The notes below the pieces were generated by a model. The model made no database searches. It was not told where the DNA came from and saw only the letters and a list, made by a program, of their open reading frames with translations. Both the position numbers and the translations under genes were made by a program. Positions 10,572-60,636 of a DNA stretch of 64,000 nucleotides are shown here, in pieces (within the stretch, counting starts at the first letter, position 1; each line of letters opens with the position of its first letter). This stretch comes from a bacterium (GTDB lineage Bacteria > Armatimonadota > UBA5829), in contig JAJFUS010000005.1 in the NCBI GenBank assembly GCA_021372295.1, positions 62,001 through 126,000 on the forward strand, read 5' to 3'.

Positions 10572-11918
10572 ATGAATAACATAACAATCATCGGAGGCGG
10601 GCTTGCCGGGTGCGAGGCCGCCTTTCAAATTGCAATAAAAGGGCTGAGCGTCAGGCTTTACGAAATGCGTCCGCATATCATGACCGGTGCGCACCGCTCA
10701 GGCAATTTGGGCGAGCTGGTATGCTCAAGTTCGCTCAAGTCGAACTCGCCAAGCACCGCGCATGGACTTCTCAAAGAAGAGATGCGCACGATGGGTTCGA
10801 TTATACTTGATTGCGCGGCGAAGGCGTCAGTCCCAGGCGGCGATGCCCTATGCGTAGATCGCGAGAAATTCGGCAAACTGGTCACGCAGGTAATCGAGTC
10901 CAACCCCAACATAGAAGTCATTCGCCAGGAAATTACCGATATTCCCCTAGATAGACCGTGCGTTATAGCCACCGGTCCGCTCACATCCCCTGCCCTTGCT
11001 GACAGCATCAAACAACTTACCGGGGCAAATCACCTGCATTTTTTCGATGCAATCGCGCCGTCGGTTGACTCCGAAAGCATCGATTATGGCAAATGCTTCA
11101 GACAATCGCGCTACGACAAGGGCGAAGCCGCATATATCAACTGCCCGATGACACATGAGGAATACGAAGCGTTCATAGACGCGCTTGTCGGGGCGAGAAT
11201 CGCCAATCTTCATCTCGAAGAAGAAAAAAACGCGCGATATTTCGAGGGGTGCCTGCCTGTGGAAGTGATTGCAAAACGAGGCAGGGACACACTCACGTTC
11301 GGTACGATGAAACCAGTCGGACTCACCGACCCGCACACCGGGCGCAGACCGCACGCGGTCGTCCAACTCAGGCAGGAAAACGCCGATGGCACGGTTTACG
11401 GCCTAGTGGGATTCCAGACCCAGCTCAGGCAGTCAGAGCAGGATCGAGTCTTTCGGATGATACCGGGGCTGGAGCATGCCGAGTTTGTGCAGTATGGAGC
11501 CGTCCATCGAAACACATATATCGACTCGCCGAACGTTCTCACATCCGCGCTTCATACCAAACTCGACAAAGGGCTGTTTTTCGCAGGGCAAATGGTCGGG
11601 GTCGAAGGGTATATGGAATCAGCTGCATCGGGGATAGTGGCCGGGATCAACGCCTCGCGAATCGCAACCGGGCAGAGTGTAGTCGTGCCGCCCAAAGAAA
11701 CGATAATCGGCGCGCTGCTCGATTATATCGCCAACTGCCCGATAGACGATTTCCAGCCGATGAACTCCAACTTCGGAATACTTCCTCCGATCCTGGAAAA
11801 GCATCCCAAGAAGATGCGCAAAGAGTTGAAAGTCGAGCGAGCGCGTAAAGCCATGCGCGAATTCTCCGAATTATCTTGGGGCTCCGCCCCAAACCCTGCA
11901 AGAGACTCTGTCTCTTGA
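10572..11918 (+). CDS. trmFO: methylenetetrahydrofolate-tRNA-(uracil-5-)-methyltransferase TrmFO
   Basis: FAD-dependent enzyme that makes m5U54 in the tRNA T-loop using methylene-THF, 448 residues. The FAD loop GGGLAGCEAAFQIA is at residues 8-21. TGAHRSGNLGELVCSSSLKS and the C-terminal FAGQMVGVEGYMESAASGI are typical of the GidA-like TrmFO family. The normal protein should end near the KVERARKAMREFSEL helix. The last 13 residues (SWGSAPNPARDSV and one Ser) are encoded by repeat copy 2, which supplies the stop codon. The ATG at 10572 is one base past the trpS stop. Confidence 0.95.
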   Translation: MNNITIIGGGLAGCEAAFQIAIKGLSVRLYEMRPHIMTGAHRSGNLGELVCSSSLKSNSPSTAHGLLKEEMRTMGSIILDCAAKASVPGGDALCVDREKFGKLVTQVIESNPNIEVIRQEITDIPLDRPCVIATGPLTSPALADSIKQLTGANHLHFFDAIAPSVDSESIDYGKCFRQSRYDKGEAAYINCPMTHEEYEAFIDALVGARIANLHLEEEKNARYFEGCLPVEVIAKRGRDTLTFGTMKPVGLTDPHTGRRPHAVVQLRQENADGTVYGLVGFQTQLRQSEQDRVFRMIPGLEHAEFVQYGAVHRNTYIDSPNVLTSALHTKLDKGLFFAGQMVGVEGYMESAASGIVAGINASRIATGQSVVVPPKETIIGALLDYIANCPIDDFQPMNSNFGILPPILEKHPKKMRKELKVERARKAMREFSELSWGSAPNPARDSVS

Positions 11919-12095
11919 CTCTGCAAGGAAACCATGTTTCCTTGACCTTCTGACTCAGAGTTGAATGATCCCTTAAGGGATCATTCAACTCTGGAACGGG
12001 GGTCCAGGGGCCACTCGGCTCCTGGCGGGGTTAAGGGGTGGAACCCCTTATGGGAGTCTGAGGGTGAAACCCTCAGATAATCTTCGCAGAAATAA
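11871..12095 (+). repeat. multi-hairpin repeat, copy 2
   Basis: Same orientation as copy 1. The central palindrome at 11956-11993 is perfect over 38 bases. The left end reads through as the C-terminus of TrmFO. The right end (AGATAATCTTCGCAGAAATA) is a degenerate form of the terminal inverted repeat. The whole element lies between trmFO and the tyrS promoter. Confidence 0.9.
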
Positions 12096-18057: not shown

Positions 18058-18262
18058 AAGAGTTCAGTTCTGCGAAAATTATCTGAGAGTTTCCCCCTCA
18101 GTCCCTTGCAAACCCGCTGGGGCCGCAGACTCCAGACCCCTATATCAGAGTTTGTAATCCACTGACAGGGGATTACAAACTTTGGGGTCAGAACGTCCAA
18201 GAAACCCGGTTTCCTGGCAGAGTCTGGGTTTGGGGCAGAGCCCTAAAATGCTTGCAGACACA
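18058..18262 (-). repeat. multi-hairpin repeat, copy 3 (degenerate)
   Basis: The left terminal repeat (AGTTCAGTTCTGCGAAAATT) is intact. The CTGAGAGTTTCCCCCTCAG hairpin and the central palindrome near 18147-18184 carry unpaired bases, and the right end is eroded. This is the most diverged copy. It abuts the 3' end of the 18265-19215 gene. Confidence 0.8.
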
Positions 18263-24664: not shown

Positions 24665-24689
24665 ATCAAATCTAGATCAAAAAACAATA

Positions 24690-27180: not shown

Positions 27181-27424
27181 AGTTCAGCTTTATGAGATTT
27201 TCTTGGGGCTCCGCCCCAATCCCAGCCAGTGGCTTTGCCTCTGGACTCCACAAGGAAACCAGGTTTCCTTGATCTTCTGACCCGAACTTAATTATCCCCC
27301 TTAAGGGGGATAATTAAGTTCGCTACGGGGGTTCAGGGGTCCGGCTCCTGGCGAGGTTAAGGGGCAGAGCCACTTATGGGAGTCTGAGGGTAAAACCCTC
27401 AGATAATTCTCGCAGAACCGAACT
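27181..27424 (+). repeat. multi-hairpin repeat, copy 4 (full length)
   Basis: A 244-bp copy with both terminal inverted repeats: the left begins AGTTCAGCTTTATGAGATTT, and the right, read on the minus strand, begins AGTTCGGTTCTGCGAGAATT. The central palindrome at 27283-27322 is perfect over 40 bases. This is the only copy between two divergent genes, away from any gene 3' end. Confidence 0.92.
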
Positions 27425-30096: not shown

Positions 30097-30344
30097 AGTT
30101 CAGTTCTGCGAGAATCATCTGAGGGTTTCACCCTCAGACTCCCATAAGGGGCTCCGCACCCCTGAACCCGCGCTGGGGCCGCGGGCCCCAGACCCCCATC
30201 CCTGAATTGGTTACCCCCGTTTTACGGGGGTAACCAATTCAGGGTCAGAAGGTCCAGGAAACCGGGTTTCCTTGCAGAGTCAAGAGACAGAGTCTCTGAC
30301 GGGGTTTGGGGCAGGGCCCCAAGAAAATCCCGCAAGACTGAACT
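30097..30344 (-). repeat. multi-hairpin repeat, copy 5 (full length, type copy)
   Basis: A 248-bp copy with both ends intact: the left begins AGTTCAGTTCTGCGAGAATC, and the right, read in reverse, begins AGTTCAGTCTTGCGGGATTT. In between, in order: CTGAGGGTTTCACCCTCAG; a GGGG/CCCC hairpin; CTGGGGCCGCGGGCCCCAG; the central palindrome (30200-30244); a GGAAACCGGGTTTCC hairpin; AGAGACAGAGTCTCT; and TTGGGGCAGGGCCCCAA. It fills the gap between two convergent genes. No clear target-site duplication is visible. Confidence 0.93.
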
Positions 30345-48811: not shown

Positions 48812-49022
48812 TTATCTTGAGGGTTTCACCCTCAAACTCCCAGCAGCGGCTCCGCGCCCCTTCACCCGCGCTGGGGCCGCGGACCCCAGACCCCCGTTCC
48901 AGAGTTGAATGGTCCCTTAAGGGACCATTCAACTCTGAGTCAGAAGGTCAAGGAAACCTGGTTTCCTTGCAGAGCCCAGAGACGGAGTCTCTGGTGGGGT
49001 TTGGGGCAAAGCCCCAAAGAGA
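48812..49022 (-). repeat. multi-hairpin repeat, copy 6
   Basis: Fills the whole space between two convergent genes: the aminopeptidase stop codon on the left and the aroC stop codon on the right. The central palindrome at 48900-48937 is perfect over 38 bases. The flanking hairpins are CTTGAGGGTTTCACCCTCAA and CCAGAGACGGAGTCTCTGG. The outer terminal repeats have been trimmed. Confidence 0.92.
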
Positions 49023-50202: not shown

Positions 50203-50408
50203 TATATTGAGGGCTTCACCCTCAAACTCCTGACCAAGGGCTCTGCCCTTGGATCCCGTCAGGAGCCGAGTGGCCCCTGCACCCCCGTTCCATAATTGAA
50301 TGATCCCTTAAAGGGATCATTCAATTATGAGCCAGAAGGTCAAGGAAACCTGGTTTCCTTGCAGAGTCCAGAGACAGAGTCTCTGGCGGGATTTGGGGCG
50401 GAGCCCAC
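50203..50408 (-). repeat. multi-hairpin repeat, copy 7
   Basis: Between aroC and aroA, with its right part (50340-50408) inside the aroA reading frame. The central palindrome at 50291-50329 has its own arm sequence (CATAATTGAATGATCCC). With copy 6 it brackets aroC in the same orientation, which allows recombination across the gene. Confidence 0.92.
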
Positions 50409-51686
50409 ACACATATCCGCGCCGGCACTCTTCATCAGTTCCACAAAGTTAGGAAACGTGACGCTCAGAGCCTCGGCGTTATATATATCTGTCTCGCCGT
50501 CCAGGCACAAACCTGCAACAGCCAATGCCATTATAACACGATGGTCGCCATGACCGCGAACGTCAGCCGCATGCAGCTTCGAGCCGCGAATCACCAACCC
50601 GTCCGGCAGTTCTTCAACATCGGCTCCCATTTTGGACAACTCCTCAAACATGACTGTTATCCGATCGGTTTCTTTCAGCCGAGCCTGCCCGACGTTTATC
50701 AGCCTCGTCTCACCCTGGGCAAAACAGGCAGTTACCGCCAGCGCGGGCAGCGCATCGGGAGTATCGGCCAGATCGAGCGTCGCGCCGCAAAGACATCCGC
50801 CCGAAACCACAAGCTCTCTTCGTCCTTCGGTCTCCACTCTCCACTCTATATTCGCGCCCATCCGTCTGAGCATATCGACAACCGCCTTGTCGCCCTGAGT
50901 ATCGTTCGGGTCAAGTCCGAGAATGGCAAGTTTACCACCGGTGATTGCCGCAACGCACAGGAAGAATGTCGCCGAACTCCAGTCGGCGGGCACAGCCCTG
51001 TCGAACGGCTTATACTTCTGCCGACCCGGTATTGCAAACCTCCGAAAATCCTGATTATCGACACTTATCCCCTGCTCTTCGATCCAACGAAGAGTCATTT
51101 CGACATAGGGTTTCTCGGTCAGATTCGTAACGTTGATGATCGTGTCACCCTGCGCAATCGGACAGTTTATGAGTAGGCTGCTGAGATACTGCGACGTCTT
51201 GCTCCCATCGAGTTCAATTTCTCCACCACGGAGTGGGCCGCGCACAATAATCGGAGCCATGCCGTTATCCCGAGTCGAGTCAATCCCTGCGCCGAGAGCG
51301 CTTAGCGCGTCGATTATAGGCCCTGCGGGCCTGCGCCTGATTTGATCGTCGCCGGTAAAGACGCTCGTCCCGTCGACAAGCGCCGCCATGCCCAGCGCGA
51401 TATATAATGTCGTGCCTGAGTTGCCGACGTCTATTACGTCATCCGGCACACTCGGCATGCCGCTTATTCCGCGCACTATCCAGTCGCCATCGATCTCGTC
51501 TATACGAGCGCCGAGCAAGCGGCATGCGTCCACCGCCGACATCGTATCCGACGCGACAAGCGGCCTGCGTATAATCGATTCACCCTCCGCAAGCGACGCA
51601 ATCACCAACGCGCGAATGGTATGCGACTTCGACCCTGGAATCTCCACCGACCCCGCTATCATAGACTTTTTTACAATCAGTTTCAT
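50340..51686 (-). CDS. aroA: 3-phosphoshikimate 1-carboxyvinyltransferase with repeat-encoded tail
   Basis: EPSP synthase, 448 residues, joining PEP to shikimate-3-phosphate; the next step, AroC, is encoded just downstream. IPGSKSHTIRALVIASLAEG (Lys20), VGNSGTTLYIALG, GSKTSQYLSSLLI, ADWSSATFFL, RLKETDRITVMFEEL and VRGHGDHRVIMALAV are present. The natural end is near VELMKSAGADMCVG. The last 20 residues (SAPNPARDSVSGLCKETRFP) are translated from repeat copy 7. Start ATG 51686 with AGGAAAG; the open frame to 51920 crosses the promoter and has no signal. Confidence 0.95.
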   Translation of the reverse strand: MKLIVKKSMIAGSVEIPGSKSHTIRALVIASLAEGESIIRRPLVASDTMSAVDACRLLGARIDEIDGDWIVRGISGMPSVPDDVIDVGNSGTTLYIALGMAALVDGTSVFTGDDQIRRRPAGPIIDALSALGAGIDSTRDNGMAPIIVRGPLRGGEIELDGSKTSQYLSSLLINCPIAQGDTIINVTNLTEKPYVEMTLRWIEEQGISVDNQDFRRFAIPGRQKYKPFDRAVPADWSSATFFLCVAAITGGKLAILGLDPNDTQGDKAVVDMLRRMGANIEWRVETEGRRELVVSGGCLCGATLDLADTPDALPALAVTACFAQGETRLINVGQARLKETDRITVMFEELSKMGADVEELPDGLVIRGSKLHAADVRGHGDHRVIMALAVAGLCLDGETDIYNAEALSVTFPNFVELMKSAGADMCVGSAPNPARDSVSGLCKETRFP

Positions 51687-54543: not shown

Positions 54544-55194
54544 ATGGACGACATCAGGTCAAAAGCTGAATTCGACAAGCTCATCACGGCGGCACACGTC
54601 CACAGGCGGCGCGGAGATTATGCCGAGGCCGATCGGGCGATCAGGCACGCTCTCGATATGTGCCCGAACGATATGGATGCCCGCGAGTTCGCTGCGGACA
54701 TGCTCTTCGCCCGAGGCAGGTTGGAGCAGGCCGCAAAAGAATACAAAGCGATTCTCTCGGAGGACGCCTCGCGTACCTATGCGGAGGAGCAATACGCCAG
54801 AGTGATCCTGCAAATATCCGAAGGCAAGCGGCAACAGGAACTGCTCAAAGACATGCTGGAGAACCCGTCAAAGTATCGAGCTCCGGCGCGGTCTCCATTG
54901 GTGGCGGCAATCCTTTCGATAGCTCCCGGCTTCGGCCAGATATATAACGGTCAGTTCGTGAAAGGGGCCGCGCTCTTTACCACTACTATGATCCTTTGGT
55001 TCTTCTTTTATCTCATGAGGCCCGACGTGAGCGCGTACCGGCCGGATGTCAGAATGATGCAGTTCGTGCAAAACCTCAGTCCGCTGGCGGTGATCTTTGC
55101 GCTGTCGGCATTCTTTCTGCAAGTGTACGCGTTCGTGGACGCTCCTGTCGTTGCCGACAAGCAAAAGAAAAACCAGGACGCGCAGCCGGGTTAA
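54544..55194 (+). CDS. TPR protein with TM2/DUF5683-like membrane domain
   Basis: A 216-residue protein. Residues 1-95 hold two TPR units (FDKLITAAHVHRRRGDYAEA; ARGRLEQAAKEYKAILSED). Residues 120-205 form a membrane domain that opens with AILSIAPGFGQIYNGQFVKG, the PGxGQxYNG...KG pattern of TM2-like proteins, followed by two hydrophobic helices (ALFTTTMILWFFFYLM; PLAVIFALSAFFLQVYAFV). A basic tail follows. A scaffold role at the inner membrane is plausible but not shown. Probably translated from a leaderless mRNA. Repeat copy 8 follows its stop. Confidence 0.75.
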   Translation: MDDIRSKAEFDKLITAAHVHRRRGDYAEADRAIRHALDMCPNDMDAREFAADMLFARGRLEQAAKEYKAILSEDASRTYAEEQYARVILQISEGKRQQELLKDMLENPSKYRAPARSPLVAAILSIAPGFGQIYNGQFVKGAALFTTTMILWFFFYLMRPDVSAYRPDVRMMQFVQNLSPLAVIFALSAFFLQVYAFVDAPVVADKQKKNQDAQPG

Positions 55195-55200
55195 AACAAT

Positions 55201-55330
55201 GGTTCAGTCTTGCGGGATTTTCTTGGGGCTCTGCAAGGAAACCAGGTTTCCTCCACATTCTGACCCGAACTTAATTATCCCCTTAAGGGGATAATTAAGT
55301 TCGATATGGGGCTCAGGGGCGACCCCAAGA
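55201..55330 (+). repeat. multi-hairpin repeat, copy 8 (internally deleted)
   Basis: The left terminal repeat (GGTTCAGTCTTGCGGGATTT) and the central palindrome (55266-55303, perfect over 38 bases) are kept. The AGAGACTCTGTCTCT hairpin and most of the right half are missing, leaving about 130 bp. It lies between two convergent genes, and the RND stop codon follows directly. Confidence 0.9.
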
Positions 55331-58300
55331 TTACCTTTCCAGGTCGTTTCCAGCCCCTACGTAATCGGTATCGAGATCAAGCTCTCCCATACCGGACAGG
55401 TCGTCCTTTCGACTGGATCCCGGCGCGATTTTCTTAAGCAGTCCCTGCCAGGCGTCGTCCACGATCGTGTAGGTCACGGGAATTACGATCAAAGTAAGCA
55501 AGGTCGATACGATAAGACCACCGATAACTGCAATCGCCATAGGCGAGCGCATCTCGGAACCCTGGTCCAGAGCCAAAGCAGTCGGCATCATACCACCGAT
55601 CATGGCCAGAGTGGTCATCATAATAGGCCTGAGCCTGGTCTGGCCCGCCCCCAGAAGAGCGTCATGCCGATTAGTGCCTCTCTCCCGCAGGGTGTTCGTG
55701 TAGTCGATCAGCAGGATGGCGTTCTTTGTAACAAGACCCACCAGCATGATGATACCGATCATTGCGACCACACTGAGCGACTTGCCCGTAACCAGCAGAG
55801 CAAGCAGCGCACCAATCATAGCCTGAGGCAGTGCGAACATAATGACCAGTGGCGTCAGGAACGACTCAAACAGCGCTCCCATCAGCATATACACCAACAC
55901 GATAGCCAGAATTATTGCCGAGAACATATAACCGAAGCTCTCGTTCATCATCTTACCCATACCGCCGGTTGCAATCGTAGTGCCCGCAACTTTGGGCATA
56001 TCCTTCATGCGCTGGTTGATTGCGGCTTCCACATTACCCAGGTTCGCGCCGCTTTCCAGGTTCGCAGTCACTTTTACGAGCCTCTGATTGTTCTTACGGT
56101 CGATCTTGGTAGGTGAATAGTCGCGTGTTACCTGTGCGACGTCTTTGAGATACACCGGAACGCCGTATTTTGACCCGATGATGAGATTCTCGACATCCGA
56201 CGGTTTGTTTCGGTCAATATTAGCGTAGCGCACCCTTATGGGATACTCTGTGCCGCTGTCACGCAGCTTGGCGTCGTCATTGCCGTCGATAGCAATCCTT
56301 GCAGTGGTCGCCACCTGAGCCAGCGTCATATCCCACTTGGCAGCGCGAAGCCTGTCCACAATAATTCGCCTCTCGGGCTTGCCGGCCTTGTAAGAAATAT
56401 CCACGTCCATACAGCCCGGCGTCTTCTTCATAACCTCAGCCAGTTGATTGGCCTGCTTGAGGATGTCGTCCATATTCTGTCCCATGACTTCCTTGGTGAC
56501 ACCCTGAGTTCCCATGTCGCTGCTTATTGCAGCCGTAATCTGTTCTGCTCCGGGAATACTGGCAGTGCGAGCGGATACCGCGTCAATTACTTCCTGTACA
56601 CCGCGTTTTCGCAGGTTCTTGTCCACGATCTTACAACTGATGACCGCATAGTTGGTGCCTGTATTGCCACCCGAATGCGAACCGGCACTGTCCGTACCGA
56701 CAACGCTCACATAATACCCCTGCTGAACCAGTTTACGCTCCATCTTGCCGTTGTCGCCTTTGACTTCTTCATAGACCGGCCTAAACTCCGGCACCTGGTC
56801 AAGCACTTTCTCGATTTTTCTCGTCACGACATCAGTCGCTTTGAGGGAGGTTCCGGGAGTGGTGCGAACTTTGATTTGAAACTGGCCTTTGTCTGTGTCT
56901 GGAAACATACCGAACCCAAACGGCAGGTAAATAGTCAGCGCGATCACCACCATCATGGCGCCAAATATAATCGCGACTTTCTTACTCTTTTTGTCAATGA
57001 GCATTGCAGCCGCGCACGCGGCTACAGCCACCAGGGCAATTACAACCCTGGGTCCCGTAAAGGCGACTTTGCCCCCCGGAATGGGCATAGCCATCGCAAA
57101 CACGACCAGCAGGGACACACACCCGATCACAATAGTCAGGAACCGGTTGTGCAGAGCCCATTCCAGCACGCCTCGATAGGCGGCAGTGACAGCCGAAATG
57201 CCGCGTTCCAGCCCACCAAACAGGACGCCGGCGACTCTATCAACTCTGTCCTTATACGTCGGCCTGCCTTCGGCAATGCGCTTTGCAGAGAGTTCGTCAT
57301 CACGATCCTTTTCGTCTTCGGTCTTCATCCATCGCGAAGCAAGCATAGGGGTCAGGGTAAACGACATAAGCAGCGAGAACGCTGTGGCACACGCAACTGT
57401 AATACCGAACTGTCTGAAAAACTGTCCGATGATCCCGCCCATAAACGCAATCGGCACGAACACAACGATGTCCACCATAGTGATTGCTACAGCCGCAAGG
57501 CCGATCTCAGAACGCCCGTCGACTGCGGCAGCCTCTCTGCCCTTGCGCATTTTCAGGTGTCGCTCGATATTCTCCAGAACGACGATGGAGTCGTCGACAA
57601 GAATACCTACAACCAACGACAAAGCCAGAAGAGTCATCGTGTTGAGAGAAAACCCAAACGAACCGATCGGCAAAAACGTCGCAACGATAGAAGTCGGGAT
57701 AGCGATTGCAACAATAAACGTCGCCCTTGCCGTATGCAGGAACAAAAACACTATTATAACAACCAGCAAAATACCTTCGTAGAGGCTCTTGTTCACGGCC
57801 TCAAGCGAGTCCTCCACGGTTGTCGCAGCATCATTGATGATGGTTGGTTCGACACCAGCCGGAAGCAGTGGTCTCATCTCTTCGAGCTGTTCTCTGACAC
57901 CTTTGGAGATCTCCACTGTGTTTCCGTCCGACTGCTTCTGAACAGTGATAACAACACTGGGATCGCCGTTTATTCGGCTCAGATAGTCTGGTTCTACAAT
58001 CGTGTCATTGACTTTTGCAATGTCCCCGATCCGCACAACCGCGTCCGGCTCGCCGTTTCTGCCTTCGATAAACATCCGGGCATCGGCTACCTGCTCGGCA
58101 CTTTGGAACTCGCCGACGGTTCGCACGGAGTAATCACGCGCCCCTTCCTTGATGGAGCCTGCAGGAACATTCATATTGGCTCCAGCAACCGTAGAAACGA
58201 CCTTGCTTATACCTACGCCGTATGCCTGAAGCCTGTCCTTGTCGACATCAACCGCTATTTCGCGCTCATCGCCGCCGGTGACCTCCACTGCAGCCACACC

Positions 58301-60396: not shown

Positions 60397-60636
60397 AATT
60401 CAGTTTTGCGAGAATTATCTGAGGGTTTCACCCTCAGAATCCCGAGCAGGCGCCTCCGCCCCTGCACCCCGCTGGGGACGCGTTCCCAGACCCCGTTCCA
60501 GAGTTCAGCAGTCCCTTAAGGGACTGCTGAACTCTGAGTCAGAAGGTCCAGGAAACCCGGTTTCCTGGCAGGATCCAAGGACAGTGTCCTTGGCGGGGTT
60601 TGTGGCAGAGCCACAAAAATCCCGTAAGACTGAACT
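60397..60636 (-). repeat. multi-hairpin repeat, copy 9 (full length)
   Basis: A 240-bp copy with both terminal repeats (AATTCAGTTTTGCGAGAATT; in reverse AGTTCAGTCTTACGGGATTT). It has the clearest compensating changes: the central palindrome reads CAGAGTTCAGCAGTCCC with its exact complement (60499-60536), CCAAGGACAGTGTCCTTGG replaces the usual AGAGAC stem, and TTTGTGGCAGAGCCACAAA replaces TTTGGGG. It sits inside the efflux operon, between tolC and the adaptor gene, 4 bases from the tolC stop. Confidence 0.93.

Follow-up and report, generated by a model that had tools for sequence, protein, structure and literature searches.

The palindrome at positions 11956–11993 of the 64,000-nucleotide stretch analysed here (the window) is H4, the central one of seven hairpins (H1–H7) that stand in tandem in an approximately 208-bp repeat. 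The copy that carries it is full length, occupies positions 11873–12080 of the forward strand and attains the top score among all genomic copies with covariance model R1 (252 bits). Alignment and structure place six side hairpins around H4, all on the forward strand: H1 (11876–11892; TTGGGGC, loop TCC, GCCCCAA), H2 (11899–11917; CAAGAGAC, loop TCT, GTCTCTTG), H3 (11924–11944; CAAGGAAAC, loop CAT, GTTTCCTTG), H5 (12004–12025; CCAGGGGCC, loop ACTC, GGCTCCTGG), H6 (12032–12050; TAAGGGGT, loop GGA, ACCCCTTA) and H7 (12058–12076; CTGAGGGT, loop GAA, ACCCTCAG). H3 is the best conserved of the seven. H4, also on the forward strand and the subject of the double-change analysis below, consists of 17-bp arms flanking TTAA. 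The DNA fold z score of this copy is −9.7, and the element folds strongly on both strands (z about −10).

Nine copies of the element lie in the window, four in forward and five in reverse orientation. Further forward-strand copies occupy 2360–2570 (195 bits with the covariance model; convergent ORFs on either side), 27200–27406 (210.7 bits; type-A terminal repeats, with GCAAAAG(A/G) at both flanks) and 55188–55333 (66.5 bits; truncated, with H4 intact). Reverse-strand copies are found at 18079–18249 (102.7 bits; degenerate and shortened), 30115–30325 (193 bits; type-A terminal repeats), 48813–49020 (208 bits; convergent ORFs on either side), 50203–50412 (217 bits; overlapping the 3′ end of an EPSP-synthase ORF identified by ORF and Pfam analysis) and 60415–60619 (202 bits; type-A terminal repeats). 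Judged from ORF coordinates, all nine are intergenic or at gene ends, in convergent and co-directional gene arrangements and one divergent arrangement. Two ORFs, one GidA/TrmFO-like (11873–11918) and the other that for EPSP synthase (50340–50412), extend into the element, and it thus appears that both proteins acquired altered C termini through the insertions.

A first-pass annotation of the window had quoted seven palindromic arms, and each was recovered at its position with an exact reverse complement as its second arm. Two copies were overlooked in that annotation, namely those at 30115–30325 (arm CTGAATTGGTTACCCCC at 30202) and 18079–18249 (imperfect). The arms had also been described as independent, but several belong to shared allele groups and so do not represent seven independent events. 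The window contains six matches to CAGAGTTGAATGATCCC with no more than three mismatches, where chance alone would give 0.16, and eight of its ten perfect palindromes (arms of at least 14 bp, loops of 3–9) are H4 of the element. The other two, at 24689 and 42985, are unrelated to the element, lie just downstream of ORFs and are probably terminators.

Pairing in the element is conserved far above chance. When 39 copies were assessed against the fixed seven-hairpin structure, pairing was held in 97.4% of cells and changes on both sides were seen at 27 pairs. Double-change cells numbered 250, whereas shuffled data gave 74 ± 8, and a shift of the partners by one to three columns lowered pairing to 31–53% and double-change cells to 8–30. 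Paired substitutions of this kind are widely taken as the best evidence of functional RNA structure.

The host genome (2.65 Mb), that of an uncultured member of the Armatimonadota, is a draft assembly of 56 contigs with 5.6% contamination, in which 147 of 150 scored candidates match the covariance model. After merging of matches on both strands, these represent about 108 distinct readable copies, plus further fragments. Numerous contigs terminate in or near element copies (C13:80, C31:80, C30:95, C25:2, C50:2, C2:2, C44:37 and C22:41), indicating that the assembly breaks there and that the true copy number is probably above this count. Contigs C13 and C31 begin with an identical flank, a possible assembly ambiguity. 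Three species of the same genus carry a few copies each, and none was found in the genomes searched from one further species of the genus and from other genera of the family. The H3 motif has no exact counterpart in viral contigs, plasmid records contain nothing similar to the element, and literature searches returned no description of such an element for Armatimonadota.

Two related structures were seen in the course of this survey. An extra hairpin with arms CAAAGCAAATTGTTTAC and GTAAACAATTTGCTTTG and a loop of about 22–24 nt sits at the H1|H2 or H6|H7 junction in some copies (L049, L050, L140, L153, L154, L157–L159, L165 and L166, as well as L105 in the genome G003). It is possibly a separate small palindromic element, and a relative of it is present in a same-genus genome. 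Another member of the Armatimonadota (G035; L100, L104 and L108) has about three full copies of a distinct intergenic hairpin array that resembles the H6–H5 half of the element and includes GGGGCTCCGCCCC, CTGGGGCCCAGGCCCCAG and a long palindrome, GTGCGGATTCCGGC...GCCGGAATCCGCAC.

The element core is flanked by several kinds of terminal inverted repeat (A, B, C and E), with the same kind on both sides in 43 copies. The type-B repeat (GGGTGYRTGTCAAA...) is present at both ends of eleven copies, and in four of these exact 9-bp direct repeats abut the ends (GGCACTTCA, TGTGCTCAA, CAAAGCTTG and CTTTTCGGC). A fifth duplication, an 8-bp repeat, flanks a type-B copy in the same-genus genome G004. None of 110 cross-pairings of left and right flanks from different type-B copies scores as high, and in the same scored test four of the eleven type-B copies lack a recognisable duplication. 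The 25 type-A copies carry weaker traces (GCCAATAGCG/GCTAATAGCG, and GCAAAAG at the window copy beginning at 27200), and in most of them the duplications are weak. Short deletion derivatives of the element with unchanged ends were also found, and the type-B repeat pairs that we inspected enclose nothing besides the element or deleted forms of it.

These 9-bp target duplications, together with a length too short for a transposase gene, indicate that the element is a non-autonomous, MITE-like transposable element. Indeed, it combines terminal inverted repeats, a target duplication of constant size (in type B) and high copy number with a core of only about 208 bp. The element would have been spread by a transposase that recognizes its terminal repeats and leaves the 9-bp duplications; the duplications are observed directly, and from them we infer that a transposase moved it. 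Searches for IS256 (PF00872), PF01609 and PF01610 transposases revealed none with matching ends in the genus. In the host genome IS256 survives only as remnants and PF01609 and PF01610 are absent, and no type-A-like or type-B-like terminal repeat frames the IS256 copies of the genus. An origin from REP sequences mobilized by a RAYT was rejected, as the Y1 transposase PF01797 has no match in the genome.

To characterize how the arms change, haplotypes of each hairpin were compared over 105 model-aligned copies. This alignment, having been fitted to the structure, may be slightly biased towards pairing. In place of the true genealogy, which reshuffling of hairpin versions makes hard to obtain, we used minimum spanning trees of the haplotypes. 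Nearest haplotypes of H4 differ in both arms 28 times and in one arm 18 times, whereas the six side hairpins together show 11 double and 123 single changes (Fisher p = 2e-12 against H4). On a tree built blind to pairing, H4 still has 28 both-arm and 21 one-arm changes. Random re-pairing of the H4 columns gave a mean of 1.8 both-arm changes and a maximum of 10 in 2,000 trials, and the arms of H4 are thus homogenized beyond what independent mutation yields. The same is seen on a smaller scale among the 30 copies of the CAGAGTTGAATGATCCC subclade, which contains 19 exact double cells (eight distinct) and two singles, compared with about 1.6 doubles expected from independent mutation at the divergence of the spacers. 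The side hairpins had been said to behave as H4 does, which is true of old, widely shared allele types but not of recent changes, in which singles prevail.

The kinds of substitution point in the same direction. Transitions make up 69% of single changes, and two independent mutations therefore predict 91% transition pairs among doubles. For H4 only 16 of 28 doubles are transitions, a share that departs from the two-mutation prediction (p = 2e-6) and is compatible with the 69% expected if one mutation is copied (p = 0.12). The transversion-rich doubles thus fit a single copied mutation rather than two independent ones. Doubles and singles are also unevenly placed along H4, at 25 and 7 in the outer 13 pairs and 3 and 11 in the four loop-adjacent pairs (p = 6e-4), a gradient that could partly reflect weaker selection near the loop. 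Moreover, positions 1, 4, 6, 7, 15 and 16 are nearly invariant (C1, A4, T6, T7, C15 and C16 hardly change symmetrically), and it is therefore likely that a sequence constraint, perhaps protein binding, also acts on H4.

Conserved pairing could instead have been maintained by selection acting on a folded RNA, a DNA hairpin or a cruciform (for example one recognized in transposition), with mismatched copies being lost, or unable to move until pairing is restored by a further mutation. The high share of paired cells, the many compensated pairs and the strong fold on both strands all agree with this explanation, and the near invariance of H3 and of some H4 positions implies constraint. However, selection on the pairing of the whole element would shield all of its hairpins, and recent mutations in the side hairpins are mostly unpaired, so that selection is not needed to account for them. 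In addition, the number of H4 doubles and their share of transversions both exceed what two independent mutations would give. We therefore consider selection for pairing, which the first-pass annotation had put forward, an unlikely cause of the matched arms, and one that recent changes do not require given how freely the side hairpins gather mismatches.

Mismatch types bear on whether an RNA is the selected form. Single changes produced 43 G-U and 42 A-C mismatches in the side hairpins and 7 and 5, respectively, in H4. Counting all mismatch cells gives 152 G-U and 92 A-C, or 92 and 70 after removal of shared alleles at H5 pair 6 (60 cells) and H2 pair 4 (22 cells). Neither RNA strand is clearly favoured, and the near equality of G-U and A-C mismatches indicates that no RNA strand is protected, which led us to reject a single-stranded RNA reading. 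Rfam families have no match in the window at gathering thresholds, a further point against selection for a folded RNA, and the window contains no tRNAs.

Some copies retain rearrangements in addition to substitutions. Exact loop inversions with unchanged arms are present in H6 (AGC to GCT in L061) and in H7 (GAA to TTC in L032 and L122). The entire H2–H6 block is flipped with respect to H1 and H7 in at least six host copies (L059, L125, L129, L139, L148 and L150) and in three copies from same-genus genomes (L101, L102 and L109). The block is also inverted in L176. Breakpoints of the block inversions fall in short inverted repeats (CCC[AG]CC / GGTGGG).

In yeast, template switching during replication is reported to yield arm homogenization and spacer inversions at arms longer than 9 bp (PMC8604942), and it has been proposed as a one-step route by which RNA hairpins, and compensatory changes within them, can arise and persist (PMC8794818). 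The loop-end gradient, the loop inversions and the H2–H6 flips of the element appear to be footprints of this known process. Loop-adjacent mismatches in H4 would escape correction because hairpin-primed copying uses the inner bases as its primer. That a process copies one arm onto the other, the second possibility raised in the first-pass annotation, is accordingly well supported for H4 by the ratio of doubles to singles, the abundance of transversions among doubles, the gradient towards the loop and the loop inversions.

Arms could also be homogenized if an extruded hairpin or cruciform underwent mismatch repair, which would convert one arm to the other without new replication. Repair would yield the same double changes with a mutation-like spectrum, and mismatches at the loop end could escape it by merely widening the loop. 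It leaves the exact loop inversions and the H2–H6 inversions unexplained, however, and template switching explains both (PMC8604942). We regard mismatch repair as improbable, and polymerase template switching, rather than hairpin repair or selection, would be the main cause.

Hairpin versions are reshuffled among copies to differing degrees. Association is strong among H3, H4 and H5 (Cramer's V of 0.64–0.74), intermediate between H2 and H6 (0.49) and weak in the other comparisons with H2 and H7 (0.12–0.27), and 31 distinct six-locus combinations occur among 55 fully typed copies. These shuffled combinations suggest that recombination or gene conversion between copies exchanges hairpin versions, and they argue that arms do not merely track duplication subfamilies. 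Under the latter explanation, a few ancient palindrome versions would simply have been copied around, as might be supposed from the linkage of H3–H4–H5 versions and from the dominance of three H4 types (13, 12 and 6 copies). Yet 98 copies hold 50 H4 haplotypes, the tree contains 28 separate short double steps and H2 and H7 are largely unlinked. Arm changes that follow old subfamilies only, which the first-pass annotation had named as evidence against its proposal, are thus not what is found, and we judge this explanation highly improbable.

We conclude that the locus probably holds one of more than 100 mostly intergenic copies of a MITE-like element with seven fixed hairpins, in which the H4 arms are matched mainly by template switching. 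In the proposed mechanism, a nascent strand would copy one H4 arm plus the loop-proximal bases of the other, fold back, prime on those loop-proximal bases and copy its own first arm; alternatively, it would switch to the sister strand. By either route, an H4 point mutation would be erased or passed to the partner arm, generating a 'compensatory' pair in one step. The shorter side hairpins would rarely undergo template switching, such that mismatches persist there, and recombination or gene conversion between copies would then redistribute whole hairpin versions. This copying is read from its footprints and not from a directly observed event, and a corrected copy does not reveal the direction in which it was copied. 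Arm copying might even belong to the life cycle of the element, with each transposition re-copying the palindrome from one arm through a single-stranded or hairpin intermediate, thereby proofreading it and flipping internal segments, and with a perfect H4 needed for mobility, but we consider this extension of the template-switching model quite unlikely.

With about 100 copies in one genome, the element reveals that paired substitutions can arise without RNA selection, most likely in one mutational step. The short hairpins and the loop-end zone, both rarely corrected, serve as controls within the same molecule. The debated idea that hairpins are maintained by template switching (PMC8794818) hence becomes directly measurable. 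Since the H4 arms are probably kept matched mostly by arm copying, the 'compensating' changes seen here are no proof of functional RNA, and covariation alone is insufficient to call repeat families structured RNAs.

Several known systems share features with the element. The pneumococcal BOX elements, which are not known to be related to it, are likewise modular small interspersed repeats, although each module of the present element is a hairpin. Prokaryotic MITEs such as Correia elements and RUP (PMC10969869) are also short, non-coding, mostly intergenic and high in copy number, with terminal inverted repeats and target-site duplications. The element differs from these in that its seven internal hairpins keep a fixed order but come in exchangeable versions and that a single core is bounded by terminal repeats of several kinds, and its parent insertion sequence was not found. 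REP, BIME and REPIN sequences and their RAYTs (PMC3116915, PMC2817692) similarly form many intergenic palindromes of mosaic composition, whereas the element is larger, has multiple hairpins, shows 9-bp duplications in one terminal-repeat kind and resides in a genome without a Y1 (RAYT-type) transposase. Closest in process is quasipalindrome correction (Ripley 1982, as cited in PMC7202029) or template-switch mutation (PMC8604942; PMC8794818), which shares arm homogenization, exact spacer inversion and multi-base symmetric changes with the element. Unlike the known cases, the element lets one palindrome be followed through about 100 copies within a single genome, with side hairpins of the same copies as an internal control and a measurable loop-end gradient.
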